This document shows, one piece after another, positions 3,177-62,437 of a DNA stretch of 64,000 bases. Under the pieces are notes generated by a model. The model saw only the letters and a program-made list of their open reading frames with translations. It ran no database searches and was not told the origin of the DNA. The translations under genes and the position numbers were made by a program. Each line of letters opens with the position of its first letter. Position 1 is the first letter of the stretch. This DNA comes from Candidatus Altimarinota bacterium (GTDB taxonomy: Bacteria > Patescibacteriota > Gracilibacteria > BD1-5 > UBA6164): positions 1 through 64,000 of the forward strand of contig JAQVDN010000001.1 in NCBI GenBank assembly GCA_028698305.1, given 5' to 3'.

Positions 3177-3575
3177 CTAAATAAGAGAATAAAATAATCT
3201 AACTAAAAGGTTTATAATAAAAGAAGCTGATATTATTAATAAAAATCAAATAATTGACCATTTAATTATATCCTTTGCTTTATTAACTTTTTCATCTTCT
3301 CATGCACTGATCGTCATAGAAAAAGCACCATAAACTATTCATAAAACTGATGCAATTCATAAAAATAATGATATATTTATAGTCCATTTTTTAATTGTAT
3401 TATCAAATCATCATCAAATCTTTGCATCAGTTCATACTAGTTTCGAATCACTTAAACAATTATCTAAATTTGTTCAAATTGATTGACCTTCAGAGTAATC
3501 ACATGCTCAAAAAGTAGATGGTAAGAATAATAAGAAAATAATTGTTATAACTAAAGAATAAAATATCTTTTTCAT
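3177..3575 (-). CDS. VirB2/TrbC-like T4SS pilin
   Basis: This 132-residue protein has a cleavable-looking signal peptide, a short extracytoplasmic stretch with two Cys, and two transmembrane helices separated by the charged loop GEDEKVNKAKDIIK. That signature (a Gly-Asp-Glu-Glu-Lys-like loop before the second helix) is characteristic of the type IV secretion pilin-like proteins common in CPR genomes. It is one of six such genes in this window. It lies in a tight operon, 10 bases after the upstream gene and 4 bases before the zinc peptidase. No T4SS ATPase is visible here, so assignment to a secretion or conjugation pilus is inferred. Confidence 0.75.
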
Positions 3576-6765: not shown

Positions 6766-8010
6766 ATGAATTTATTTACACTTTTAACAAGATTTGCTGT
6801 TATAATATTACCTTTTTATGTATTTATAGCAGTATTTTTATGATATATTACTTGAATTGATAAGATAGGTTTTTTATTTAAAGAGTGACTTTTAGTTGCT
6901 ATATTTTTCAGTTTAATCTATGAATTTATTAAAGCAAAAAGATTACCTAAACTTGATATATTGGATTACTTAGTTTTATCATATATGATCTATTGAGTTT
7001 GAATAACATTATATAATTGACTTGGTTTAAATAGTATAATCTACGGTTGAAGATATGATTTTATGTTTTTAATTACGATGATTATTTATAAGCATTGAGT
7101 AGAATTTCTAAAAACAGATTTCAAAAAACTTGTTACTCTTTTTGTGTATTCTTGAGCAATGGCCTTACTTTTTGGTATACTTATTAAATTTAGATTAAAA
7201 GAAGAATTTTTAGTAGAATTTGGTTATGTTGATTATGTAAGCAATTGGGTTTTTAGTTGATGAGTTCCTGTCTATCATTGACTTGAAAATTCTTGAATTA
7301 GAAGATTTCAATGAATACTTGATTGACCAAATGCAATGGCATATTTTTTAATTATTTTTTCTTGAATGTTCTTATATATTCAAAAGAAAAAAAATGAATT
7401 TTATGTTTATTTTAGTATTATTTTTTTATTTTGGCTTATACTATTAACATATTCTAGAAGTGCTTTACTTTGAATTTTTTCTGCATGATGATTGATTCTT
7501 TTGATAAATTTAAAATACATATATAAACACCATAAAAAAATATTTATTTATGTGAGTTCAATTATGGTATTTTTATTAAGTATATTGGGAATAATTTTTC
7601 AACATCAATTAACAAATATCATTTTTAGACCCTCGTCAACAACAGGACATTTTCATAGGATGGAGATTTGATATGAAAGATTTTTAGAAAAACCACTTTG
7701 AGCATGACTTGCTGAAGCATGACCAGCATATAGAAATATTTATCCTGAAAAACAAACAAAAACTGATGAATTTTATTATATACCTGAAAGTTGGTATATA
7801 CAAGTTTTGATAGAATGATGAATAATATTTTTTATATTATTTTTAAGTATATTAATAAATATATTGCTTAGATTATATAAAAAATCTATTATAATTTTTT
7901 GAATATTTTCTGCAATCTTAGTAATGAATATTTTTTTACATATATTTGAAGCAACTTATTTGTCAATGTTATTGTTTATTTTTATTTGATTAATGATAGC
8001 TAAAAAATAA
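6766..8010 (+). CDS. O-antigen ligase/polymerase-like membrane protein
   Basis: This 414-residue protein has roughly ten hydrophobic helices and one large extracytoplasmic loop in the second half (about residues 275-345). The helix TYSRSALLG before the loop and the segment HFHRMEIGYERF inside it fit the Wzy_C family (O-antigen ligase WaaL or polymerase Wzy). Family members join or polymerise undecaprenyl-linked glycans on the outer face of the membrane. Located directly after a glycosyltransferase, it likely handles the same surface glycan. Ligase and polymerase cannot be told apart here. Confidence 0.8.
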
Positions 8011-8050
8011 AATAAAAGGGTAAAATTTAAATTTTAACCCTTTTATTTTA
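8007..8050 (+). terminator. Long terminator abutting the next start codon
   Basis: Arms around 8007-8020 and 8038-8050 pair, and the intervening bases (8021-8037) extend the stem. The 3' arm ends at the first base of the next ATG (8050), so terminator and gene start are juxtaposed. Read-through transcripts would have the start codon at the base of a stem. Confidence 0.6.
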
Positions 8051-9885
8051 TGAAAAAAATTATTAGTTACCTCTTAATAAGTATTTTTTGTTTCAATATT
8101 TTTTGAATAAATAATATATTATGATTTGATGAAGAAGAAAATTATGTAAAGGAAATAGCACTAAAAAAATGAGAACTTAGTAAATCAAAAAAATGAGACC
8201 AATATGTAAAAGCTATTGATACTTTTATAGAAGCAAATGAAAACAATGAAAAAAAACTACTTGAAATAAATTCTAGATTAGAAAATATAATATATTCTGG
8301 TGAGTTAAAAAATAATGATTTATGAAATACTATTAGATACTTAAATGCAAAAGTAAATATAGCTATTATAAATATAGAAGAAAATAAAATAAATACTATT
8401 TTAAATCCTACAATAAGTGAATCTGATAAGAACATAGCTAGTGAAAGAATACTTAAACTACAATGAAATCTTGCAAACTCAAGTAAAACATTGATAGAAA
8501 AACTTACAAAAGAATTTGAAAGTTTAAATAATTATTCTGAAACTTGAAATCTAAAAATATCTCTAGATATAGATGAAAAAAATATTTGAAAAATTAACTC
8601 AAGTATAGAATTAAGTAATTATGAAGCTACAGCAAATAATTTTGATTCTCAATTAAAATGACAATTAAAAGCTATTTTAGATGCTATTCCAGCTTGACAA
8701 GAACAAATAAAATTTGAATTAAATACATTTGTTGATTTTATTTCAAAAGATGGAAATATATATTTATTATTAAAAGATCTAAATATATTAAACGATAAAT
8801 GAATTGAAGATGAAGTAAAATTATTTATAAATACTTTTGAAAATCTTGCTAAAGAAAATAAATATATAGTTTTTGAAGACAAAAATTCACAAATGTCTAT
8901 TGAATTATTAAAAAGTTTAAATCCAGCAACTTTATGAGCAGATATAAATAAAACTCTTAGTGAACCTTTATTTGAAGCATATAAAAAAGAATGAAATAAA
9001 TATTATATAAAACCTACAAAATATTCTTGTGATAAAATAAAAGAATTAGAAAGTAGATTTGACCCACTTTATTGAAAAGAGTGTAGCGATAGTCAATATA
9101 AAGATATGTTAAAAGATTTCAATGATTTATGAATTATATATTTAATTATAGACTGAGAAAATAATACTCTATGATTTGATGGTAAAAAAGATAGTCAAAT
9201 AGAAAAAAATTCTTGATATATAACATTTAATAATAAAGAAATATTAAATGCAAATTATGAAATAATTCCAAATCAAAATAGATATCCAAATGAATTTTTC
9301 AAAGCAAATTACCTATCTAGATCAAATATTAAAGTTGATTTTTATGCAGATGGTTGAGATTTAGATACAAAATTATATATAAAATTAAATTCTAATAACT
9401 TAATAAGTTCTATTGATTTAAAATCTAAAATGTATGAAACAGAACTAGTTTCAAATATAAATGTAGCTAATCAAAGTATTAGTTGAAAAACTACTTTTTC
9501 TGAAAATTGAGAAAAAATATTTGAAGTTGACACGACTTGAAAATATACAAAAGAAACTTTAGAGTTAAATAATAAGTTTAATATAAATGATAAAAATTTA
9601 AATAATTATTTATGAAATAATATATCTTGAAACCTAAATATAAAAACAGATGTTTCTTCTTGAAAAAATAATTTTTATATGATTTTTGATATTATTTCAA
9701 ATAATTCTAAATTAATAAAATTTGAGATTGATAATAAAGCAAATAGAAAATCTGGAAACTATGAAATTAAAACTCCAACAAATACAATAGATTACAAAGA
9801 AGCTTTCTGAATACCTGATTATAATGATGAATATTATTATGATGATAGTTATTATTATGAAGACGATTACTATTATGATTATTAA
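8050..9885 (+). CDS. Secreted helical protein with an acidic Tyr-rich tail
   Basis: I do not recognise this 611-residue protein. It begins with a signal peptide. The first half (to about residue 300) is rich in Lys/Glu/Asn/Leu heptad-like patterns and is probably helical. The second half looks like one or more small beta domains (FYADGGDLDTKLYIKL). It ends in a tail of alternating Tyr and Asp/Glu (about residues 590-611). Its N-terminal module (GDQYVKAIDTF and following) resembles the whole of the next gene's product (GNKYIKALDLY and following), so the two are probably related. Strong terminators flank it. A cell-surface role is inferred. Confidence 0.7.
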
Positions 9886-9915
9886 AAATAAAAGTGGAAA
9901 ATCCACTTTTATTTT
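9885..9915 (+). terminator. Rho-independent-type terminator
   Basis: A perfect 14-bp stem (9885-9898 and 9902-9915) with a 3-base loop runs into a long T-tract, directly after the stop codon at 9883-9885. Confidence 0.9.
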
Positions 9916-9929
9916 TTTTTATTTTTTAC

Positions 9930-9957
9930 TTGACATTTATATCTTAAATTGTAGAAT
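9930..9957 (+). promoter_or_regulatory. Sigma-70-like promoter, TTGACA-16-TAGAAT
   Basis: A consensus -35 at 9930-9935 lies 16 bases before TAGAAT at 9952-9957, about 33 bases upstream of the next ATG. It falls between a terminator and the gene, as expected for an independent promoter. Confidence 0.65.
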
Positions 9958-9990
9958 ATAATAACATTTTATAATATAAAACATTATTAT

Positions 9991-10344
9991 ATGAAAAAAT
10001 TTTTAATTATTTCTTTATTTATATTTTCATTAATGTTTACCTATTCGGCTAGTGCTGATTGAGTAACAACAAAAAATAAATTATTCAAAGAAATCACTTT
10101 AAGTAATTCAAAGATACAAAAAGATTATTGAAATAAATATATAAAAGCTCTAGATTTATACTTCACGAAAATAAGATATTATAATAATAAAAATGAATTA
10201 TTAAATCTCGAAAAAAAATTAGAGCCTATTATTGTAAAATACAATAATAAATCAAACCTTTCTATCAAAGAACAAAAACAATTTAACATGATAAAAAATA
10301 TATATTATAGATCTAAAGTATTATCTAATTATTATTTAAAATAA
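9991..10344 (+). CDS. Small secreted helical protein
   Basis: This 117-residue protein has a clear signal peptide (through about residue 22, ending in SASA) and a mature part rich in Lys, Asn, Tyr and Leu, predicted helical. The pattern GNKYIKALDLYFTKI, followed by a Leu/Glu heptad stretch, parallels the N-terminal module of the 611-residue protein upstream. The function is unknown. It is transcribed alone, with a promoter just upstream and a terminator just downstream. Confidence 0.7.
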
Positions 10345-10376
10345 AAGAACCATTTTAAAAATGGTTCTTTTATTTT
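10338..10376. terminator. Bidirectional terminator between convergent genes
   Basis: A long inverted repeat (arms about 10338-10356 and 10358-10376) has A- and T-runs on both sides. It overlaps the stop codons of both the small secreted protein gene (plus) and the giant gene (minus). Confidence 0.8.
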
Positions 10377-13300
10377 ATTATATAGTCACTGTCTACTTTA
10401 TACAAAACAGAGGCTACATCTCTTGAAAAGTTTTTATCATATAGTTTTATTACAACATATTCATTATAATAATCATATTTTAATAAATAATTTGAGTTTA
10501 AAGTATTTATTCTTCAATCATTAAATATGATAAATAATAGTTCTTTTTTATCATCATTAACTCTATAAATAACTAAACTTCATGGATTATAAGATATATT
10601 TTCAGGAGTGATATAATAATTATAATTTGTTGAATTTAAAAATTTAACATAAATTCAAGTATTTTTTGTATTATCAAAATCTTCTGTAACAACAACTGAT
10701 TTATTTCAATTAACTTTTATAGTTTCATAAAATAAATCCTCATTTCAGTCCTTCAATATTATCTTTGGATAAACTTCATTATTTAGATTGTTATTAGAAG
10801 AAATTACATCAATTAAATATTTATTATCTAATAAATTTATTTTTCAAGTTTTTTCACTAACATTTGCTATTAAAGCATTATTTTTTTCTATTTTTAATCA
10901 AGATTTATCGTTTCAAATATTGAAAATATAAGATCAATTATTTGTCAAAGCAGTATTATTTCAAGATTCATTTGATAATTTTGAAATCATTGTTCATCTA
11001 ACCCTATATAAACTTACAGGTTCATCACTCAGATCTTCACTTATAATTCAAGAAATATTAGTTCAATTATGACTATTTATCTCTGGTACTGGACTATAAA
11101 CCTCAAAATTAACTTCTTTATAAGATTTATTTCAATTCAAATCGATAATTGTAAATCAAACTTTTTTTGTAAATATACTATCAAAAATTCATAGATTTAA
11201 AAATATCTTTTTATCATCCAATTTAATTTTTAAATTTTCCATATTATCAGAATCTGGATCATTTTTTGGATTTCAGTCTCAAGAACTATCTTTTTCTAAA
11301 TCAAAATCTATAAATATATTAGATAATCATACATCTTCATAAATATATTTTGTTAAATCAAGAGTTTGTTTTTGATAAACTGGAACTCTAATAGTTCAAA
11401 TAGTTAATTCTGGTGAATTATTATCAGCTTGAGATTGAGGAGATAATAATAACTGATTACTTATTGTTCAAATTATATTGTCCTTAAAAGAAGTAATTTT
11501 TGAATAATAAAAATCATTATTTCTTGTTGTTGATATCAAATACCTTTGAGATTCATATCATAAATTATATAATTCCCAATCAGAAATATATTTAAAATTT
11601 AGTGATAATTCTGAATCATCATAATACTTTAATTCTATATATGTAGTATCTTTTAATTCATAGTCGTTACCAATATATGAAATAATAGTTCACGGTAATA
11701 AAGGTATTCCTATAAGACTTCTTATATCACTTCCTTCATATGTCTTTTTAGAACCATTTCTTATATATCAATTTCCAGTTATTCAAACTATATTTATAGT
11801 TGAGTTTATTTCTATATGCCTATTTTTCGGTATTATAATAGTTTCTATATCATTACTTCAACTAATAACATATTTTAAAATTAAAGAATTATTTCAAGAA
11901 TATATCTTAGTTCAACTAGAAAGAGTTACCACTTTACCATTATCTATGTTTGTTTTTATATTTGAAAAATCATCTGTAATTACCTTAACTCATTTTAAAT
12001 CTCAAACCTTATCTATATAAACTATGTCTTTTAATTCATTATAAACTTTATTTTCTCAAATCTTATTTATATCTCATATAGAAGATACAGAATCTACAAT
12101 AGATTTTTTTCTAAAAATAGGAGAATAATTTAAATAATTTTCATTTAAAAATTTATCAACTATATTATAAAATTCAAGTCTATAATTATTTATATTATTT
12201 TTTGCATCAAAACTTATATTTATAGTTCAAGCAGATGATACATTACTTACTGCATTATTTATTGCCGATATATATTTTGATCAATTTAAAAATTTATTAT
12301 CTTTTATACTTACAACTAATGGATTTTCATTTAAATAAACTTTTTTAGATTTTTTATCTAAATTTTCTTTTAAATATAAAACATTATTAGAAAAATATAA
12401 TAAATCTTCGTCACTATCCTTATCAAAATCTATTATTGTAGTTGTTTCATTTCAAATTAATTCATCTTTATAATCAAAAAGCCTATAAGATTTATTATTT
12501 TCTAAAATATATATTCATTCATAAACATAAGAATATTCTCAATTATTTGATTTAGCACTACAAGAATTTACATTAGAATCACTATCCAAATTTGTATTTA
12601 CTGCCAATAAATTAGAAGAAGTAGATTTTGTTTGTATAGAAGATTTTTTATAAGACTCTAAAGCAGTGTCTACCTTATCAACTAAATCATTTCAAATTTG
12701 TTTTAATTCATTTTTATAAGAATTTTCATCATCATAATTCAATAATTCACTTGTTTTTTCAAATACCTTAGAATTATATTTTTCAAGCATAGAATTATAA
12801 ACTAATACATTTGAATCATTAGTATAAGAAACTTTTTTAATATTTGTATTTAAATAATTGTTAAAAGATTTTTTAAACTCTTTATTTTTAATTATTTCAG
12901 TATTTATAATATCTTTTAAAGTTTCAAATTTATCAAAATTATTTTGTTGCAATTCTGAAATCAACTTATCTTCTTTTGAAAAAGTATAATTAGTTACATT
13001 ATCCCATAAATCAAATAACTCTTCAAATCTAGGATCATCCGTAAATTTTTTACTTGATAATGACTCTAAAACTAATTTTTTAAATTCAGTATTACTAACA
13101 GTTACATCTTTATTTTTAGACATAAAATCAACTCATTTTAATATATTTCTATTAACTATAGATATAACTAAATCTTCAATTAGTTTATTATCTTTAAGAG
13201 AAATATTACTATTTATTCCATCATCTCAAATATTTATATCAATATTTGATGGTATAACTGATCTAAAATCTAAATCGGCAATATTTATGTTAAAAATATT

Positions 13301-16300
13301 TGTAAAATCAGATGTAAAACTATTTATTGGCATAGCAACTTGTCTAGCCATTTCAACTAAGAAATCAACATCAAATTCTAAATTAACATATGTAGTAATT
13401 TGTATAGCATCAACAAATGGGAATGAAAACTGAGGAAGACTCAGATTTAAAAAATCAGTAGGTAGATATCAACTTCTTTCAGTTAAAAATGCTATTTGAT
13501 CTCAAGCTCTCCACTCAGGGTGAAAAGGTGAAGATTTTAAAATACACATTGCTTTAGTAACCAATTTTAAAATATCTAAGATAACTTCTAAAGAAGATAA
13601 CATTTTTGGAAGAGTTGGTGGAGGTGGTAGATCTGGTAATTCTACAGTAGGCAAACTTGGGAGATCTGGTAATTCTGGTAATTCTATAGTAGGCAATACT
13701 GGTAAATTTGGTAAAGTAATACCTGCTGATGGAGTATCTGGTAAATAAAGTTTTGGTAATTCTGGTAACAAAATAGGTCTAGGACTAATACTAAATTCAG
13801 GTAACATTATATTTAATGATGCCCTAATATTATGTAAATCTAAAATAATATCTGGCCATTTTGGAAATTCTATCACTGGTATTTCAGGAACAATCATACT
13901 AATTATTTCAAATTCTGATTGAAGAGCATCTTGTCTTTCATTCTTACATTCTTTACATTCTTGTTCATAATCAACAAATACATCTATAAGTAATTGCCAA
14001 GATTTTAAGATAGATTTCATCAATATAAATAACTCAACCCAAGCTTTAAATCTTTCTCAATTATTTCAAATCCATCAACCAAGTATAGAAGAAATTCACT
14101 CAATATTACATAAGATTTGCTCTAAATAATATTGTTTTTTATTAATATATTTATTAATTTTTTCAGGAATTTCTTTATAAGTTTTTAGAACTTGCAAATT
14201 TGCTTCTAGAGAATTTACTAAATTTGAAGCATCTATATTTACTTTTTCAGCTAATGCATTTTCATCAATACATCTTTTTTGTTCCTCTGGATTTGTAAAA
14301 TTACAAGTTTTTCATAATGTCCAAACTGATGTTGCTCTATTTAATTCTGATTTCCGAGAATCATAAGTTGCTTGCCGTGTAAAAATTGTTTTATCAATTT
14401 CAGTTAATGAAACCCAAGGCAATGATATATCAACAGTTGCTTGTTCTATTTTTACAAGTGGCAAAGATCATAAAAATTCATATGCTTCTCTTATTCAAGA
14501 ACTATATTGTTTTGCTTTATCAACTAATTGAGAAGTAAGATTATTAGCATCAGTTGCTAATCATTTAAGAGTTGAATTTGTTATATTATTTGTATCTATA
14601 GGAGTTGAAATATTATCTAAATTAATAACATCATTTTCTGTTCTATTTTTATTTCAACTATTATATAACCAATTTGATTTATTTTGTTCCCAATCTAAAT
14701 CTGTATCATATATTCAAGAAAAATCTGGTAATATAATAAATAATGTTGGAAAATCTGTCAATTTATTTGCTATTTCTTCTATCTGTCTAGTTACCCAATT
14801 CATAAGAAATCATGGAAATGCTTGAACTCTTTTTTTAACTATTTTTGTTACATCAGAAAAATCAACATTAGAATTACTTGGATCAATTGATACAGAGATA
14901 GGAGTTCAACTTCATCATCAAATTGAAAATAAAGGACCATTTCAAACATTTGAATTATTTCAAGTCCAAACTGCATCTTTTACATTTCATAAACTAGAAT
15001 ATGTTCCATTTCCATTTATATAATTATAATAATTATTTACATAACTTTGATCTATGAAGTTTTGAGTATCAGATGAACAATTTCAATTTATAACTCAAAA
15101 ATTGTTTCAATAAATTGGATAACCTTTTGAAGCTGGATTACCTTCAGATCAATCATTACTACATCAAACTATTGGCTTTGCAATAACGATACAATTTCAT
15201 CATGGGAAAAGTGGTGCAAGTCAAGGCATCACAGAATTTCATGCTACAGATGCTGGAGCACCAAAACAAGCTGCCATTCAAACTCAACCAGTTAAAGTTG
15301 GTGAAACAAATAATCTAAAAAAATTTGTAGGTGAATTAATTCATATGCTTCATCAAGCTCAATCAGGTCAACAAACAGGTCAAGGAATATATGTTTGTGA
15401 AGTTGCGGGCCAAACACTAGGTAAACAACAAGGCGAATTTCAACAAGTAGTTTGTTTTCAAGTTAATGCTGAAAATATAGGAATTCATTCATCTATATTT
15501 AATCAATCTCAAATTAAACTTCAATTAAAAACTGGATCACTTCAAGAAGCTAAAGGAGCCCAATTTAAAGGCGTTGAAATACAAGATCAATTATTAAATC
15601 AACAACTTAAACTATTTACAAAATTTTGTATATTATCAAGTCAAGAATCAATACTATTTCATGTATTTCATAAATCAAGTGTTATTGAACCATCTAAATT
15701 AAAATCATCTTCGTCATCTGGTATTCAATCATTGTCTATATCAGAAAACATATCAGATAATGATTTTTTAGAATAATCTTTTAAAGTTTGTGTATTTTTA
15801 GTTAATTCTTCTATATAATCAGGAATTCCATTTCAATCATTATCAAGAGTATTTTTTTGTAAATCCTCTGGTAATGGAGTATCATCACAAACAGGATTTT
15901 TAATTCATTTATTATATATTCTAGTTGAAACTGATCTAAAGATTTCAACTGGAGTTCAACAATTTTCTATTGTATCTTTTAATATTATATCTCAATATAA
16001 ATCATTTCAAGATTCTCACTTTTCAAATAATCAAACTTGCATTTGAGAATATTTTAAAGGTTTAACTACTGCTGAATAATTTATTGTTATAGTTTCATTA
16101 TTTGCCAAAGAAAAATCATCGATTAAAAAATCATAACTATTATTTGGTTTTTTGGCTTGTAGTTTTTTTGAATTAAATATCGTAGATTCATCAAGTGTAA
16201 AATAATCTAAAACATCTTCTACATAAACAAAATTTTCAAGTCTCTTTCATGAAGTATTTGTTATTCTTATTTCTACATCAACCTTATCTCAAGTAGATAA

Positions 16301-19300
16301 AAATTCTCAATTCCTATCTAAGAATATCTTTTCAACTCTTACTCAAGCAGCTTCTGAATAATCAGATTTTATAAAAGTTGTTTGATTTATAGTTTGAGGA
16401 AGATTAATCAATGAATCTATATTTGTAATATCATTAAATTTAAGTGAGTAGTTTTTAGAATAAGCAATTTGTTCAAAAATAAAACTATTTACAAGTTCAT
16501 AATCTATTTTTTCTTGATCTGATTTTTTTGTTCCAGATTTAATGGATTTTTCCAATTCAGAAAGATATTTTTCATTTGATAATAATAATTGAGTATTATC
16601 ATAAGTTGTATCAACTTGATATAATCAATCATAATAGATTAATCCTCCATCTCTTCTAATATCTTTGTTTAAAGTTAATCAATAATCTTTACTAACATTT
16701 AATTTAGTAAAAGTTGGATTTGAATTTGTACCATTAATTCAATAAAAAATATTTATTTCTCAAGCATCATCTAATGTAATAATATCAGAAACTCAATCAT
16801 TATCCATATCAAAACTTTCTGCTCTGATTATATTTCAATTTAAATTAAATTTATTTGCAAGTGAGATCCTAGAAAAATCCTTATTTATATTATTTAATAA
16901 ATATGGTTTTCAATCTTCTCAAACAAAGAAAATATCATCATAAGAATCTCATGTAAAATCTCAAACTTTAAGCAATTCATGATTTCATAAATCAATGATA
17001 TGTGCCAAATCTCACATATCTAAAAATCTAGATTCGGCTTGTACATTTTGTAATAATTTTAAATATCAATCATATTTTAAAAGTAGTATATCTTCTCTAT
17101 TATCATTATTATAATCAAATACCCTATATCAAACTAGATTTTCATCATCATTTATTAAGTCTCAAATTGTAGAATCAAATTGTTTTAAACTTGTTGAATT
17201 ATTAAATGTTTTTCTAATTTGTTTTAAACTAATAACAGGATCTCATATATTTATAGAAGAAAAACTCATATTTTCTTTTAGTGATTCTCATACACTTTTT
17301 CATGATGAAAAAGATAACAATGTTTTATTTGTATCTCACCATCAAAGTCATCATTGTTGTTTAAAGTTTTCAAAATAAGAATTATCTCATTTAGAAAAAG
17401 TATTTAATGAATCTTTTGAAGAAAAAGGATCATTGTAATATATTACAAGAGATTCATTATTGTCTTTTCAATTTATATATGATCAATAAAATGAAGACTC
17501 TATATAAAGCATAATACTATTTTGTATAGTTTTCATTTTTGTATCAAAAGATGTTTTATCTCTTGATATATTAATTTGAGAGTTTACAAAATTAAATATC
17601 AATTTTCAAACAATATTAGAACCTGATTTTAAAGATATTTCTAAATAATTTGCAGTGCTAGTTACAACTTCAAAATCTATATTTGCTCTCCTTATTATAT
17701 TTCATTTTTCATCTATTTCTAAATAAGTTTTTCAAAGCTCATCTCTCAAATAAAGTCTCGAATCAACATTATAAAATTTAAAATTGGAAGAAATATTTTT
17801 TCCTATTATAGAAGTATCTTTTGTATCTATACAATCTCAAATACTTGTATCACAAACTTTTAAATTAGCTTTCTTTGGAAAAGCATAATGTATTTCTCAA
17901 ATATTTGTATTTAGTGAACTATTAAATAAATCTATATATAATTTTGTGTCATTAAATGAAACATTTAAATTAATATCTTGTGATAAATCATTTGGTGCAT
18001 ATAACTTATTTAATCATCAATTATTTGATATAGAAAAAACATTATTATATGAATATGGGTTATTAACTATAGAAGTTACAGCCAAAGCTCTACTATTTTT
18101 ATCAAATATTAAAGTTCAAGCTAAATAATCTTTTTGATCTATATCTCAATAACTAGCTCAAAGTAAAGTTGTATAAATAGAATTATAACTAGTTTTTGAA
18201 ATCTTATCTTTATTCCAAATATAAAATGTTTCTATTTTTGCAGCATTTTCTCATACTCAAACAACTTCCAATCTTCAAGATTCATCCTCAATCATAAATT
18301 TATTCAAAGACAAAGAAGGATTTGTAGAAACTTTGAAATATCAAACTCATGGATTTATAGTAGAAAAAACTTTAAAACTTGTTTTTCATTCTGTAACCGT
18401 ATTAGTTTTTTTATCAAAAGTAATTATATGAGTATATTCTGGTAATATTTCAATATCTACTTTTGTAGAATTATCAGTAAAAACCAAATTGTTGTATCTA
18501 TCTTTAAGCTCTATATTTACTGTTGAATAATCATTACCAGATGCATCTAATTTATTTTTTGATAAAACCAAATCTATTTTCATTGCTTTTTCAGGCAATA
18601 TATCAATAGTTTGAGTTATTATTTTTCATAATCATTCTACCTGTATCTCAACAGGAATATTTCTTCATGCAAGAGTTTTAGTTCTAAATTCTACAACTCA
18701 AACTCAATTAATAATTTCAAAATATGGTTTTTCTAATTCAATATAATTTGAATTAGCTGTCATATAAACTCTTGAATTTAAATTATTAATTATCTTTCCT
18801 GCTTTATCTCTAATTTCTATTTGATATTTATATTTTCATCATCAAATATACATATCACCATTTAAAGATTTTGTATTTATTTCAAAATCTTCTATAACAG
18901 AAGCTTTCTTAGATTCTGAAACAATTATATTTCATAAAGAATCTAAAACAGATATATTTATATTATTACTTCATACTTTTGAATTAGATTTTAACCTAAA
19001 AATCTTATATCACTCATAAGTAGTTGTCAATAAATTATCCTTATTGTTATCAACAAAAACAAGACTTTTCCCATCTATTGACATTTTAACATCATAAAAT
19101 GTACCACTAGTAGGATTATCAAATTTATCAAGTATAGTTACATAATTTGTAGAAACACTTCATTCATTTTGTAAATAATTTGTTCACAAATTTAAATCTA
19201 ATTTAGAAGGAATTTCAGGAATAACTTCAAAAGTTTTTTCAGAATATAAAGAAGACTTATCTCTTATTTTTAAAGTATAAGTTCAAGCTTTTTGGATAGA

Positions 19301-22300
19301 AAATAATGACTTGAAATCTGAAATATTATCTATATCCAATTCTTGTATTAATTTATCATTATTAAATAATTGGATATTTATAGGATAAGATATAGGTAAG
19401 AAATCTTTAGAAGAAGAAATGTTTTCTAATCTTATAACTAATTTTTCTTTTGAAACAGAACTATTATTAATAAGATTTTTACTTATATCTATATTTGATT
19501 TATATCAATCAAGTAAAAAAATATTATCCTTATCACTTACCAACACAGATGATTTTGCTATATTTGTGATCAATTGAGAATCCTTATTTTCTAAAACATA
19601 AGAAGATAAGAATAGACTTTCTCATCTAACCTCTAATTTTAAAATATTAGATTCTAAATCAACAACATTATTATTTTTATTATCATCTATACTTATTTTT
19701 GCTCTCAAATATACATTTATATCTTTATCTTTAAATGATATACCATATTTTGCAATTCAACCATCAACTCTAATTGTTATATCTTTAAAATTTAGATAAT
19801 TATTAAGTATCTCTTTATTATTTTTATAGATATCATCTATATCATAAATAATTTTTTTATTTGTTTCAGAAAGATCTTTTGTTAAGTCATTTTTAGTTTC
19901 TACTTTTACTATCTCAAAAGAAACATTTGTAGAATTTAAATAAGTTAAATTTTTTCCATCTGATCATTTTAAAGTCGCTTTTAAAGAAGCATTTTTATTA
20001 TAAAAATACTTAGGGGAATCTGATTCTAATAATATACTTCCTGAAGTTAATTTAGATTCTAAACAATCATTTACTCAATTTTTATTTACATCTCAATTAC
20101 ATTCTTTTAATGTTTGTTTTTCTTCATTTGATAAAAGACTTGGTCAACAAGCTCAATCAGAAATAGAGATTGTAGGTGGAACCATATCTGCTAACCGACA
20201 CATAATAGCTGGTATCCATTCCCACAATGGAACACCTTCGGGCGGAGCACATTTAAAAATATTTTCTTGAGAATTAGTTCATCTTCAAATATTTAATCAT
20301 AATAATTTTGCTGACAAATCTTGATTTCTTCAAATAATATCTGAATATGGATTTACATTTTTAGCTTCTGGATCAACTCAAACATACATATTAGATGTAT
20401 CTCATGGAGCTCATAAATAAGCTATTTCATAAGATTTTTTATTCTTTGGTAAAAAATATTTTTCATCATTATCAAACTGATTTGATAAATAATTTTCAAA
20501 AACAAATCAATATTTTGAAGAAACTGAATTTAAGTTATTCCAATATATTGCAAATACAAGCATATCGTAATAACTAAGAGTTTTTGATTCTCATGATATA
20601 GTTATAGTTTTACTTGGCTTATTTTTTAAATAATTTTTTAAATCAAGTCTTTCTCATGTTTTTACTATGCTGTTAAATTCAGCACTTTTTTTATCTAAAA
20701 TATTATCTAACTCTAAAGAAACACTAGATAAAGTAATATTATTAATGTTTTTTAATTTTAACCTATATAAGTAAGGATAATATATCTTTGAAAATGATCA
20801 ATCTACTTGTAAAAAATCAACATATCTATCTTTATCAACTGCCAAAGAAGGAGTAACCATAGATTCTATTTGTTCTGAAAGTTCTTCATTTGTTGGAGAT
20901 TTATGAAAAACATAAGGTTTCTTAATAGTCTTATAATCATATCTATGACTTGTCCATCAACTTCATTGTGTATTAGTAAAATTTCATGATAATATATTAT
21001 TTGATACTCATTCTAAGTTATTTACTAAACTTGATGTTGATGATCCAGAACACTCACAAGAATTTCATAAACAAGATTGAGTATATCAAACTTCTTTTTT
21101 TAAAACTCAATCCAAATAAATAGATTTTTTTTCACAATATCATGCTTTTAAAGTTGAAAGATTTTCTTCATAAGAGATATTTAAATTATATGTTTTATTA
21201 ATTCAATTTGAATCAGTTATACATTTCCATCATGGAATATTCTTATTCAAAATATTTGAATTAAAAGTAGGAATTTGATATGTATTTACCAATTCTGATG
21301 TCAAAGAGTTAAGTTGAACTTCCCATTTATCTGCCAAAATCAAATTTGTATCATAACACATTTGAGTATTTGGTATTTTTGAAGAATCAGATATTTCTTT
21401 TGATCATCTAATATCATATAACGGAACTATTGCTCCCTTATAATCAATATTATTATTTAAAATTAAATTTCATTTAGTAGATTCATCTTTATTAAGATTA
21501 AAAGGGGAATTTCTTCACCATAATCATTCAAGTGAATTTCATGATTGTAAATTTGTATAACAAATATTTCAAAATAAACCTAGATCATCTTTATCTGGCT
21601 CTATATTATAAATATTAGTTCATCTATTTGATTCAACCAATTGACCTGAACTTGATAAACTTCATCTATATATACTACAATTTCAAGCATAATCTATTTC
21701 TGAAACTTTTTTTCAAAACAAATAATTTACATATTTTTCAGTTTTTAAATTATCTTTATACTCATATGAAACAGGTACAATTAATGAAGCTGGAATCTTA
21801 TCTACTAAATTATCTATTTGCGATTCTAAATCATCACTTAATTCCTTTAAGATCTGATCATTAACTATATCAAGAACATTTATAAAGTATGGTATAAAAT
21901 CAACATTAACTTCTTGTCAATAATTATATCTTCAAGCATTAAACACGTTCTTTCTCATCTCTGAAATAGAACCAGGAGAAAAAATCTCTAAAAATTTTTT
22001 AACAGAATTATTTATAATATATCTTGATTGTATATCTGGAATATTATTTAAACTTGTATCAATATTGTTTAAAAGAGAAGTATCTATATCTGGAGTTACT
22101 TTTTTTGCTAAATCTATTATCGTTTTAGAAGAATCTGACAATAATTCTTGTTTTATCTTATTTGCCAAATCTTTTGTAAATCTATTATAAACTATATCTT
22201 CTTTATTTTCCAAATAAGATTTATATCAAACATAAGAATTATAATTTATAGATTTTGATTCTCTAAAAGCATCAAAATAAAATACATAAGGTTCATAATC

Positions 22301-22975
22301 TTTATTTAATCACTCTTCTTGATTTCAATTAATAATATTTTTTTCTATATCATAAAATCCTTCTCAAGTATAAAAATCATGATTTTTGGAAAAGTAATCT
22401 TTTAATGCTTCTATATCAGAATCAAAATTTCAAGTATTTGGAGATATAACTCAATGCCAAATTTCTGGTTTAATTCAACTTATATTATCATTACTATATT
22501 CATATTTAGATGTATTTGTATCAAAAATATATGATTTATCTTCAAAATCAGTATAAGGTAATATAGTTTTTGATACTTCATTATTCTTATAAACCTCAGG
22601 TAAAGGAATATTTCAAATAAAGATACTTCAAACCAATTTTGATTTAAAATCAACTTTATTAAGTCAATTATATCACTCATAATATAAAGCTTCATTCATA
22701 GAAGCAATATCATAAGGAGTTGCAGTTTCAGGAAAAGGCAAAACCACTACTTTGGTATTTTCCAAAGTATTAGTAATATCCTTGCTATATTTATTAATTT
22801 CAGAAGATACTTTTGAATAAGTTTCTTCATCAACGACAATAGAAACTAAGTCATAATATTGAGTTCATGAAGCTGAAGCAAAAAAATCAAAAAATGGTAC
22901 TCTAAAAGTAATACTAAAAAGTAATGAAAAAATCAAAAAACTTGATGTAAATTTTTGAAATTTTGAATATATCAT
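10370..22975 (-). CDS. Giant secreted surface protein, about 4201 residues
   Basis: Read with TGA as Gly, the frame stays open for 12,606 bases. The start at 22975 and stop at 10370-10372 are in the same phase, and all sub-fragments checked share it. The N-terminus has a signal-like hydrophobic segment (residues 10-32), then the stretch TKVVVLPFPETATPYDIAS with IFIGNIPLPEV, faintly like gingipain-type (C25) folds. FG-GAP/VCBS-like repeats lie near residues 1950-2060 (FDYNNDNREDILLL, FDMDNDGVSDII) and 3511. Calcium-loop motifs of the DNDGIPD type lie near 2378 and 2415. A Gly/Cys/Pro-rich stretch is around 2500-2610 and a Leu-Pro repeat region around 3060-3125. No transmembrane anchor is obvious at the C-terminus. 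It is likely a filamentous adhesin-like protein. Confidence 0.85.
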
Positions 22976-23088: not shown

Positions 23089-24348
23089 TTATATAATTTT
23101 CTTTCCTCACATAAATGGAACTAAAACTTCAGGAATAATTACATCTCAATCAACTGTTTGATAGTTTTCAATTATAGCAATTAAACATCTTCAAATAGCT
23201 GAAACTGTACCATTTAAAGTATGAACATATTGAAGATCTCAATTATTATCTTTATATTTTATATTTAACCTTCTTGATTGAAATTCTCAAACATTACTAC
23301 AACTTGTAACTTCTCTATATTTTTGTTGACCTGGCATCCAAGCTTCTAAATCATATTTTTTCATAGCTGGGTTTCCTAAATCACCACTACAGATATTCAT
23401 TTTATTATAAGGAATACCTAGATCTTGCCGAACTTCTTCTTCAACTCAAACCATAAAATCATGCATAGCCTTACTTTCATTATTTTTACAGAAAACTACC
23501 ATTTCAACCTTATCAAATTGATGTCATCTAAGTATACCTCTAGTATCTTTTCAAGCACTTCAAGCTTCTCTCCTAAAACAAGGACTATAAGCAACATACA
23601 TCTTTGGTTTTTCTAAGTCTAAAACCTCGTTAGTATGATAACTAGTAACTGGAACTTCACTTGTACCAACTAAATACAAGTCATCATCTCAAGGATTTAC
23701 ACTATATATACCATCTTCTCAAGCAGGAAAAAATCATGTCCCAAACATAGCTTGTTCTCTAACTAAAACTGGTGGCAAAATAGGTTCAAACCCTTTTGAC
23801 ATAAGCTTAGATACTACAAAATTAATTATAGCAAATTGTAATAAAACTAGATCTCATTTTATATACCAAAAACGAGCTCATGAAACTTCACTTCATTTAT
23901 CTATATCTATCCAACCCTTTTTTTCTCAAATTTCCCAATGTTCTTTTGCTTTAAAATCAAATTTTGTAGGTTCTAAAAAACTTTTTTCAACTATATTTCC
24001 ATCTTCGCTATCTCAAACAGCGGCTGTTTCATCAAGTAGATTTGGAAATTTATAATACATATTTTTCCAAGCTTCTTCAACTTCTTTTTGTTTTTCTTCT
24101 AAAATAGATAATTCATCTCAAACTTTTTTCATTTCTGCAATTTTTGCAGGCCTTTCTTCATTTGATAATGTAGGTATTTCCTTACTTACTTTATTTTTTA
24201 AAGCTCTATATGAGTCTACTTTAATTATTAAATCCAATTTTTCTCTATCTATCTCTAAAAATGTATCTAAATCCAATTTTAAATTTCTTTTTTTAATAAC
24301 ATCAGCTACTAAATCTGGATTATTTCTAATAATTTTTATATCTAACAT
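23089..24348 (-). CDS. serS: Seryl-tRNA synthetase
   Basis: This 419-residue class II synthetase charges tRNA-Ser. It has the N-terminal tRNA-binding coiled coil (about residues 1-105), then motif 2 ([18 protein letters not shown]) and motif 3 ([19 protein letters not shown], with the family's conserved Gly and Arg). The segment [13 protein letters not shown] is the serine-binding TxE loop. Length is normal for the family. Several motif glycines are TGA, for example in GFFPAGEDGIY. It lies downstream of smpB but behind a terminator, so it probably has its own promoter. Confidence 0.97.
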
Positions 24349-24410
24349 TCAACTTATTTTAAAAACTAAACTTGTCTCATTATAGACAAAAAAAGAAAAA
24401 ATCAAAAAAA

Positions 24411-24435
24411 AAGACAAGATATGATATCAAGTCTT
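24411..24435 (-). terminator. smpB terminator
   Basis: An imperfect 12-bp stem (two mismatches) is followed in the minus direction by a run of T at about 24404-24410. It overlaps the smpB stop codon. Confidence 0.65.
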
Positions 24436-29107: not shown

Positions 29108-32787
<3,680 letters not shown>

Positions 32788-32788
<1 letters not shown>

Positions 32789-58522: not shown

Positions 58523-61500
58523 TTATTTAATTTTAAAATTCTTAATCATTTGTTCTAATAATTTGTTTATAACTTGAAAATCTTTGTCTACATAATTTTC
58601 TCAATTAGTTATTTCTAGTATATAGTATCAAGTATTTGGTGTTTCTGTTGTCCATCATTTCTTTAACTCTAAACTTAGTTTATACATTCATGGTTCTAAA
58701 TCAACTATTTTATAGTTTCATTTATTATCTAGTTCTATGTATTGTTTTTCTTCTTTATTTTTATCTTTGTGTTTTTTATCTTCTTTTTTATATTTTTCTT
58801 TTTCTTTATTTTTTCTGTTATTATTTTCTTTTGTTTCATCTATTGTTTCTCTATCTTCTTGTTTTTCCAATACTAGTTTTGTAGTTTTGTTTAGTATTTC
58901 TTTTTCTAGTTGTTTTACTATTTGACTACAATTTTTATTTCATATCTTTTTACATATTTCTTGTGGTAGATATAGTCATATTTTTCAGCTTATATTTCAT
59001 GGCAATATTTCTGGTTCTATACTATAATCTAGGATTGGTTTAAGATTTTCTGTTGTTTCTTGTATTCAATCATTGTCTAAATCTTTTGAATATATTACTG
59101 CAGTATCATTATCGTTTAATACTTCTATCCAGTTTATATCTAGTTCTTGTTTTCAATTTATTGTTTCTAGATTTCATAGCATAACTGTTCATGTAGAGTT
59201 ATTTTGGAAGTCGTCTACTAGTATATTATATGTTCAAGAGTTAGTTTTTGTATCATCAAAATCTACTCTAATATTTTCTCTTGATATATTAAAAGTATCA
59301 GTTTGTCATGATGATGTAGTTATTCATTCTAGTTTTGTATAATAATCTCATCATGCTATCATTAAGTCATAGTTTTCATCTGTTTTACCATTTATTCCTA
59401 TACTTAGATTTTCTAGTTTTTGTGGTAAGTAGATTTGTTTAAAAGTATTTTCAGTAGTTTCTCAAGCATAGTTTACTATTACTCTAGTTCAAGGTATTTC
59501 TTCATATATTTCTCAGTTTTTATATCATGTTTTGTTTCAGTTTATATCAGTAAGTAATATATCAGAATTTCAGTTTAGAGTATAGAGAGTATCTATATCA
59601 TTGAATCATATTAAAGAAGTATTATCAACAAAAGCTTCATCTATAGATACAATTCATATTTTTTCAAATTTATCCCGATTATATCAAAATACTGAATATG
59701 TATTATTTGTTATATCTATTTCTATATATTGATTATAAGCAAAAAATTTTTTTCATAATTTATTTTCAAAGAATGGGTATGGTGTTATATTGTCCCAAAT
59801 ATATATTTTATTTCATTCTACTTTATATGGTATAACAGCATGTCACACATCAATACATGATTTTCAAAATAAATTACATCCGTTTTTTCATCTAAAATTT
59901 AATATATATTTTCAAGGATTATTTTTTACATTATTTAGTATATCTATTGGAGTATCATTTTCTAATGATAAAGTCATTTTATCATCAAAATTACTTTCTT
60001 TTTGATATAATTGTAATGCTAAAATTGATTTCAAATTATCATCCAATCATATTAATTGATAATTATTATTGGTATCATTTTTTATATTGATTTTATCAAA
60101 AATATATCAATTTCATATATTATTACTAAAAATAGGAAAATTTCTTTCTAATATTTCTGGTTTATGATATTGGGTTAAAGCACTTAGTCAAAGTCAAAAA
60201 CATATACCATCAGAAAAAATAGTAGGTTTATCATTGTTTAATCACAATGATTCAAATGCTGCAAAATACTCTCTTTCATCTCAATTAAATGATTCAATTG
60301 GAAATACCATATCCATTATTTCCCATTTTGTTCAAGAATTTTTCTCTCTTGTATCCTTAAAAAATCCATCTTTTCAACTTATTCATCAAGTTAACTTAGA
60401 TATATCAGGACTAGAATTCACAAAACTAAACCCATAAGGATATGGCTCAAATCATTCAAAAAGTGAAAAATCTATTTCCCAAGCTTGATTTGTACTATAA
60501 TCAACTACTTCACTTGTATTTCAATTATTATCTGTAATTTTTACTTTCCAAGTATAGTTTCATTCTCAAAGATATGGTATAGTTATAGTTCATGTTCATG
60601 AAAATATTTCTATACTATCAGTATACATAGGTATTGTTTGTCAGTGTTTATATACTTCAAAAATCATATTGTATGAATTTGTTGTATCATTTTGTATACT
60701 TGCTTCTAGTATCACTCAACTTCCAGATTGAAACTTACCTATTGTAGTTCATACTTCTATTTCTTCTCTTTTTTCAATATATGGTGATTGTATATATTGT
60801 TTTAAATTTGTTGGTATTGGGATTTCCTCCTCTCCATTTGACTTAATAATCTCCACACTATGTATTATAGGTGTCTTTGTTGTATCATTTTCATCTGGTA
60901 TTAGATGGATCTCATAATACAATCTATCTGTAGTTTCTCAAAACATACTCACTAGATCTATATCTGTTTTACCATCTAATTTCTCTTTTTCTATACAACG
61001 GTAATTGTAATAATAATTATCTGTATTATTTGGTTCTTTATTACTTATACAAAATATATAATCTGTATTTTCTGGTAATTCTGAGTCTACTTTTATCTTT
61101 ATAAATTCTTTACTTTCTCCATTATATATTTCTCTACTCTTGTATACATTTTCTTCTACATAATAATTATTATCTGTTCCATCCTTCTTTATCCTATATA
61201 CTACTGATTTACTTTCTGGTGTATTATAATATCATGGTTTAGTTACTGTTTTAAAATAATATATATATTCTTCATCATTTGCAAGATAATAGCTATCAAT
61301 TTGAGTTATTATAGTTCAAGTTTCTTCTGTTCCATCTTTTCTTATCTTTCTTATCCTATAATCATTTGGATCTTCTTGATTTGGATCATAATTTCTTATA
61401 ATATTTGTATGATAGTATATATATTGTTCATCAACAAACATTATTGCATTATCTTCTTCTTGTCAGATTGTTTCTGGTGATTCTGGCATATATTGTTGTC

Positions 61501-62437
61501 AATATGAATCTGGTTTTAGTCTCTTTATCTTATTACTATCATTTGGATCTGTATAGTAGATATATTCTTCGTTTGATGTGAAATCTGGGTAATATAAACT
61601 AGATATATATGCAATTGGTATATCATAATTTTGTTCCAAGCTTCAATTTAGTTTTGTCATATATAGATATCAATCTCACCGATCTTCATAACCATTCTTA
61701 TAATATATTTTTTCTTCATCTACATAATATATTTCATTTGCTGATATATTTGTTATCTTTTCTGATTGATTCATAAATGAATAAGGACTATCTGCTCTTA
61801 TTTTATATATTCATTGTTCTCCATATCTCTTACTATAATACAAATATCCATCCTTATAATATGGTCTTCATAATACTGATTCTTGTATTAATGTTTCTCA
61901 TTGTGAATCTGCTTCCCAATCATTTTTTGCCCTACATATATAATTATAATAACAACTATAATATACATATTGCTCATCTATATGATGTATACTAAAATTA
62001 TATGGACTTATTCAGCTCAATACAATCATTCATCCATAATATGCTTGACTTCCAGTTTTTGGTATCTTGTACAAGCTTCCATCTTGTCTTGCATTTTGAT
62101 AGTATAGAAATTCTCACTCTATATAATAATTTGAATCATTATTTATTAAATAATTATAATTTCCATAATTATCATTTCCATATAATACCATCTCTGCTTC
62201 TTCTTTTTTCTTACCTTTTTCTAGTCTATATATATTATTATCTTTTATATAGTATACATAGTTTCAATCTATTATTACTTTTCATATTATACTATTTTCT
62301 ACTTCATAGATCTTCTCTCACGATATCTTATCAAATCTATATTCTATTTGTTCTTTGTAGATATTTTCTGCACTAGCATTATTTACTCACAAAAAAACAA
62401 CTATCATTGATAGCATTAATAAAAAAATCTTTTTCAT
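58523..62437 (-). CDS. Large secreted protein: propeller-like repeats, papain-like domain, repeat-derived C-terminus
   Basis: This 1304-residue protein has a signal peptide (residues 1-25). Residues about 30-460 carry repeated YYIxxGxxYRIxxDG patterns (for example EYIYYFKTV and VYRIKKDGT) like the DUF5050 beta-propeller family. After an Ig-like stretch, residues 735-890 show a Cys/His/Asp signature: Cys746 in SDGICFGLGL, His866 in DVGHAVIPYKV, and Asp near 882 in IYIWDNITPYP, typical of papain-fold peptidases. The C-terminus has a Lys/Glu-rich linker and a domain with GMYKLSLELKKGW, ending LLEQMIKNFKIK. TGA Gly codons occur throughout. Target and function are unknown. Confidence 0.8.

Follow-up and report, generated by a model that had tools for sequence, protein, structure and literature searches.

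Giant surface proteins are already known in the part of the bacterial tree that concerns us here. Vampirococcus lugosii is described as carrying giant, mostly surface-targeted proteins of 1,392-4,163 amino acids (aa) (PMC8080830), giant surface-targeted proteins are also described from Strigamonas (PMC13059738), uncharacterised huge proteins of more than 5,000 aa are reported as an enriched class in Peregrinibacteria (PMC11573180) and the giant open reading frames (ORFs) of Omnitrophota, up to 39,678 aa long, are said to encode many transmembrane helices and to be poorly conserved (PMC10066038). The subject of this study is a giant gene on a 64,000-nucleotide stretch of DNA (the window: positions 1 to 64,000 of contig JAQVDN010000001.1) from Candidatus Altimarinota bacterium (Patescibacteriota; Gracilibacteria; BD1-5; UBA6164), a tiny and probably host-dependent organism. 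Our findings indicate that this gene, which codes for one exported protein, belongs to an orthologous family spanning an order and its class, with split forms in two families, and to judge from the accounts just cited it is this combination that is new. Naming of groups follows record titles and a review (PMC13293708).

Likenesses to the described giants are easily seen. Those of Vampirococcus and Strigamonas (Absconditicoccaceae) are very long, mostly surface-targeted and come from code-25 relatives; the longest Vampirococcus protein (4,163 aa) is, compared by description only, about the size of the relatives in family f13, another code-25 group with a giant (4,133-4,596 aa stop to stop). They differ, in the form in which they have been published, as lists of large adhesion-type proteins rather than one orthologous single-copy family. 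The huge Peregrinibacteria proteins have counterparts, again by description only, in standard-code members of our family of 5,000-5,600 aa and one of 7,874 aa, whereas the account of that survey drawn on here gives no family, domain order or conservation (PMC11573180). Omnitrophota giants, presumably surface or contact proteins of ultra-small bacteria as here, differ by their description from the window family, which is conserved, collinear and without transmembrane helices. In the literature on the giants of these groups, of which our coverage is incomplete, neither split forms nor a single-copy family of orthologues running through order and class are described.

One uninterrupted reading frame with TGA as glycine

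A previous interpretation made from the letters of the window (henceforth the sequence-only reading) proposed a single ORF at 10370-22975, dependent on genetic code 25 and filling about 20 percent of the window. These coordinates are exact and the computed share is 19.7% (~1% of the 1.29 Mb assembly); what the proposal left out is the strand, which is the minus strand. Translated with table 25 (TGA=Gly), the frame is open from ATG to TAA over 4,201 codons, among them 209 TGA, and neither an in-frame TAA or TAG nor a frameshift, the outcomes named beforehand as refuting the single ORF, is present in the window gene. The remaining two sense frames carry 85 and 97 TAA/TAG per 1,000 codons and, at the given base composition, the probability that 4,201 codons stay open is ~10^-150, which leaves no room for chance.

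As the frame is open solely with TGA as Gly and splits into short ORFs under table 11, one may think of an assembly or genetic-code artefact in which separate genes appear fused through misread TGA. Its probability is next to nil, however, and we consider it refuted by two lines of evidence. First, at TGA codons of the window 52-85% of the aligned orthologue residues are glycine, frequently encoded by GGN (in one, L041, 95 GGN and 12 TGA at 189 aligned window TGA sites), which compares with glycine kept at 63% of the window's own GGN codons and supports the reading of TGA as glycine. Second, equivalent giants of the same architecture are open in standard-code families, whose gene is without TGA codons and forms ORFs of up to 5,617 aa plus the one of 7,874 aa. 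No terminator was detected around the gene by a rule-based scan, although a short inverted repeat past the stop codon is seen by eye.

An apparently single-copy core gene of order and class

The N-terminal 979 residues are matched in all 60 genomes tested from the order (36 from the same family and 24 from two other families; 6 of the 36, counting the window's own genome, share its genus). Additional matches to this N-terminal block are pieces of the same gene or, in a single contig, one inverted duplicate, and there is no evidence of a second copy in the 60 genomes. The duplicate (G035:C37; L020 / L067-L068) consists of two inverted gene copies with identical scores and is probably a palindromic assembly artefact. 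Full-length orthologues of 4,000-4,417 aa, open and collinear end to end, were found in 18 of the 20 regions that we fetched, with identities of 29-67%, 270 invariant positions and conserved cysteines; one of the other two is cut by the contig and one (G007) is frameshifted. In the latter (L040 / L076) the frame is lost after 851 residues and the remaining 3,494 aa are open in another frame, owing to an assembly error or a recent lesion.

In the class, at least 150 of 192 genomes have the gene (150 matched by the N-terminal and 133 by the central profile), with relatives of ~3,800-5,600 aa, apart from the largest already mentioned, in both TGA=Gly and standard-code lineages. Among the 20 class members fetched, 19 were long enough to compare and their matches run in the same order along the chain as in the window family. 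Moreover, in the tree of the central core, families f1, f12, f13 and f20 each form a single clade, which is what vertical descent would predict. Convincing matches in 379 genomes of the phylum are confined to class members, with none in other Patescibacteria, and weak ones outside the class (G375, G395, G489; E 6e-4 to 3e-6) were taken as noise. A pattern-based scan of 84,980 species returned 52 loci in records named Gracilibacteria, Patescibacteria or just bacteria. Throughout the order and in most of the class, the giant is a conserved and apparently single-copy core gene.

Separable modules in a fixed order

To judge from the alignments, the giant is one uninterrupted polypeptide, collinear in its relatives and made of separable modules, which follow a fixed order in the 18 full-length orthologues: export signal, N-domain, FG-GAP, central CxxC/Pro-rich core and C-terminal part (class members are collinear). 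Secretion had been claimed before, and indeed the sequence pattern shows a cleavable Sec-type export signal that is shared with 18 orthologues. Past it, no transmembrane segment and no C-terminal hydrophobic segment was found in the window protein, nor an LPXTG motif (by eye) or an SLH domain (Pfam). FG-GAP alone exceeds its cut-off in a Pfam search of the whole protein (PF13517, 30.5 bits vs 26.9, residues 2006-2066) and is seen in 19/19 aligned members. Likeness to an immunoglobulin (Ig)-like domain is seen in most orthologues (Invasin_D3 in 13/19 and Glyco_hydro2_C5 in 15/19, best E 5e-7), the window protein itself reaching 15.6 bits vs a cut-off of 33. There was no NCBIfam match to the whole protein, a sequence search of the PDB with it gave spurious matches only, and PDB profile searches using the N, central and C blocks gave nothing credible.

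Calcium-type loops lie at residues 962, 1954, 2006, 2056, 2378, 2412 and 3516, most of them strongly conserved, so that both the FG-GAP-like and the calcium-loop motifs of the sequence-only reading were rightly recognised. Stiffening repeats, by contrast, were not borne out: self-comparison of the window protein finds no internal repeats at E<=1 of the kind that marks tandem-repeat adhesins (RTX/LapA or Big-repeat), and the FG-GAP loops resemble propeller blades, not a stalk. As in FG-GAP or integrin-alpha-type propellers, three blades with calcium-type loops are consecutive and a fourth is found far downstream; unlike there, the blades are set apart by ~1,450 residues that contain the central block. 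Blades 1950-2080 and 3516 may be pictured as joining in one propeller with the central block inserted.

Next to its FG-GAP and calcium motifs, the protein had been credited with a faint N-terminal likeness to caspases and gingipains. As for the fold, this was a fair hint. An AlphaFold2 model of the N-terminal block (mean predicted local distance difference test, pLDDT, 74) is matched by VIA-align to RgpB (Z 9.8, 123 aligned, 2.8 A), PorU (8.3), Kgp (6.8) and caspases (~6), the best unrelated row being a designed protein (Z 7.5) that ranks above Kgp. The region matched to the fold of C25 peptidases (gingipains, PorU) is ~residues 40-350, with the fold covered in part (118-134 residues), and Foldseek with the same model gave nothing significant against the PDB and viral models (E 0.19 or worse). 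A working peptidase, on the other hand, does not follow from it. The window protein has no cysteine before C433, hence none in the C25-like segment 38-348, which excludes a cysteine peptidase there, and neither the window protein nor 37 N-blocks match PF01364 (C25); a phylum search with PF01364 was likewise without match but uninformative, its controls being equally silent. One could also think of a secreted enzyme, or of a polyprotein that processes itself, with the peptidase-like N-terminal domain cutting either its own chain or proteins of the host; this would fit the rank of RgpB and PorU as best fold matches. Given that residues 1-432 are devoid of cysteine, that H174 is replaced in some members and that no enzyme family was detected, we take it to be very improbable.

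Split forms of the giant

The class search found no recognisable giant in families f7, f10 and f16. In the two genomes of f16, three overlapping genes for exported proteins stand together in one operon. The first protein (637/641 aa) carries the giant's N-domain (hhalign probability 98.7-99.4), the second (577/554 aa) is an FG-GAP protein and the third an Ig/PKD protein (1,434-1,696 aa) with a C-terminal membrane segment, which shows no relation to the giant. The FG-GAP protein aligns in two collinear parts to the giant, i.e. to the blades at ~1923-2075 and to the isolated blade at 3513-3540, by single matches that are weak (E about 1e-2 to 5e-6) but recurrent. The cluster (L167:7120-15791 and L168:2-7825) adjoins a recF-like gene.

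In f7, 11 of the 12 tested genomes have an exported protein of ~1,000-1,350 aa related to the central block. This relation, which an order-level profile alone misses, is seen with a class-wide profile, reciprocal search and profile-profile comparison, the last two of which give concordant results (E 1e-12 to 1e-23); the scores of 2,000 local shuffles do not exceed 4 bits, vs 46-51 for the real match. The protein belongs to a five-gene cluster kept in 9 f7 genomes, whose other four proteins (op2-op5) do not match the giant. This cluster (L134:4269-13152, L135:3829-12494), headed by the central-block relative, codes for exported proteins near ssb-like and murB-like genes, and its fourth protein has a HELVH (zincin-like) motif. 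With modules existing as separate exported proteins in f7 and f16, the giant would be a fused assembly, or the others split ones.

The relative in f7 bears on the most conserved part of the giant, residues 2440-3250, with its conserved cysteines, CxxC pair and Pro-rich rod. From this conservation, and from the f7 and f16 modules that are exported as proteins of their own and in part share an operon, one might picture an envelope-spanning conduit or secretion-like machine fused into one chain, where central helices and Pro-rich rod form a passage or stalk and the other domains an outer cap. We deem this quite unlikely: transmembrane segments were not found, the hydrophobic helices carry charges and look amphipathic, and the model of the central block, poor as it is, has no structural match to a known machine; its best VIA-align match (Z 7.1) is unspecific because of long helices. 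A bolder scenario sees a class-defining extracellular machine, its exported subunits still separate in f7 and f16 and otherwise fused into one 4,000-5,600-residue chain that forms a permanent contact or transfer apparatus of Gracilibacteria sensu lato; the Cys/Pro-rich central block would be its conserved working part, inserted in the propeller. To our minds this is speculative and also unlikely.

A possible scaffold of the surface or host-contact layer

We regard the sequence level as solid and infer the function from it. Our preferred interpretation, to which we give a probability of about 55%, is that the giant is a lineage-specific, fused, exported scaffold of the cell surface or host-contact layer, stabilised by calcium and disulphides. 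Its conserved export signal, the spread over order and class, conserved cysteines and calcium-type loops, the split forms and surface-glycan genes adjoining it in several genera are counted in favour, as is the precedent of the giants published from Vampirococcus and Strigamonas. A C25-like domain without cysteine, Ig-like domains, FG-GAP propeller-type blades, the Cys/Pro-rich central block and C-terminal beta domains make up a chain that calcium and disulphides would stiffen and that may have a structural role where the small cell meets its host or surroundings.

Several points weigh against this. Surface location and contact role are deduced from sequence, f7 and f10 are without a recognisable giant and the model of the central block is of low confidence (pLDDT 61). 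In addition, the protein could be released, because no transmembrane, LPXTG or SLH anchor was found. Finally, it is 63-67% identical within the genus vs 91% for SerS and so evolves more quickly than housekeeping genes do, which is what one would expect of an adhesin that faces the host.

An adhesin, the label given in the sequence-only reading, is plausible; in a host-specific form its main task would be attachment to the surface of one kind of host, and propeller and Ig-like domains would make up the end that binds. Apart from the rate of change, the domains are of adhesion type and the literature on the candidate phyla radiation, in the portion covered, takes large proteins as adhesins. Yet one collinear gene in every order member tested, in lineages that probably have different hosts, the absence of repeat expansion and the 270 invariant positions speak for something else, and we think the adhesin doubtful as the main function, albeit worth serious consideration. 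The sequence-only reading could not see the conservation of the giant, which fits a fixed structural role, as in the scaffold that we prefer, better than a strain-specific adhesin.

Neighbouring genes and other features

Upstream of the giant lie serS, smpB, an M23 peptidase gene and thiI; the convergent downstream genes also include one for a glycosyltransferase. Genes for exported proteins of 611 aa and 117 aa (8050-10344, +), which are without any family, stand beside the giant in several genera, and the same holds for serS and the surface-glycan genes, in several genera though not all. Elsewhere in the window, 29108-32788 (+) codes for a 1,226-aa leucyl-tRNA synthetase in which a domain of the alpha/beta serine hydrolase type (PF06821, residues 251-434) is inserted directly ahead of the editing domain, and 58523-62437 (-) for a second large protein (1,304 aa) without a Pfam match. 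Coordinates are collected in Table 1.

Table 1. Position of the giant gene, its domains and its neighbours in the window
Feature	Coordinates	Strand	Basis and remarks
Giant gene, 4,201 aa, table 25 (TGA=Gly), ATG to TAA	10370..22975	-	translation and orthologues
Export signal peptide, residues 1-36; h-region LIFSLLFSITF, A-x-A-like cleavage site, A35 invariant	22868..22975	-	sequence; pattern shared with 18 orthologues
N-terminal alpha/beta domain, residues 38-211; motifs (L.G..hhG.hPLP), (PY.DF), (EIWHGVI); gingipain/PorU-like fold without cysteine	22343..22864	-	alignment, model, structure comparison; stand-alone in family f16
Conserved N-terminal block, residues 38-980; invariant C433, C540, C909, C926, C943	20036..22864	-	alignments A1/A4; AlphaFold2
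Ig-like (invasin D3 / Big_1-like) domain, ~residues 1466-1560	18296..18580	-	Pfam matches in orthologues
Three FG-GAP blades, residues 1950-2080, calcium-type loops at 1954, 2006, 2058	16736..17128	-	PF13517; 19/19 orthologues; loop Asp invariant
DUF11-like beta domain (tentative), residues ~2200-2330	15986..16378	-	DUF11 in 2/19 orthologues, best E 0.0017
Two thrombospondin-3-like calcium loops (DNDGNGIPD, DIDNDGIPD), residues 2378-2420	15716..15844	-	motif scan and conservation
Central Cys- and Pro-rich block, residues 2440-3250	13226..15658	-	alignments, profile comparisons; stand-alone protein in family f7
Class-wide core of central block (CxxC, PDI..D, helices around Pro-rich rod), residues 2880-3225	13301..14338	-	alignment A9
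Pro-rich rod (LPxLPxLPELPDLPSLPTVELPDLPPPPTLP), residues 3030-3124	13604..13888	-	sequence; alignments A2, A9
Isolated FG-GAP-like blade (IIDFDKDSDEDLLY...LYLKENL), residues 3505-3545	12341..12463	-	five invariant Asp; matches last blade of f16 stand-alone FG-GAP protein
C-terminal part, weakly PKD/Ig-like, residues 3560-4201; closes with conserved VLYKxxxxYIxK; neither transmembrane anchor nor LPXTG	10373..12298	-	alignments, domain scan
serS, upstream neighbour	23089..24417	-	annotation, locus comparison; recurs in genus and several other genera
Convergent downstream neighbours: Wzy_C O-antigen-ligase-like protein, exported 611-aa and exported 117-aa proteins	6766..10344	+	recur in several genera, not universal

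Implications

Published accounts have treated the large proteins of Gracilibacteria, Absconditabacteria and Peregrinibacteria as a mixed set of adhesins, in groups whose way of attaching to other cells or feeding on them is yet to be explained. One orthologous giant, found in all tested genomes of the order and in most of the class, provides a concrete gene to label, localise and solve, and its split forms in two families show modules suited to separate expression. The giant further provides a clear example of a conserved core gene among the giant ORFs of ultra-small genomes, unlike the Omnitrophota giants, which are described as poorly conserved. Because it is a core gene across the order and most of the class, the giant is probably a fixed part of how these bacteria build their surface or hold a host rather than an odd local adhesin.
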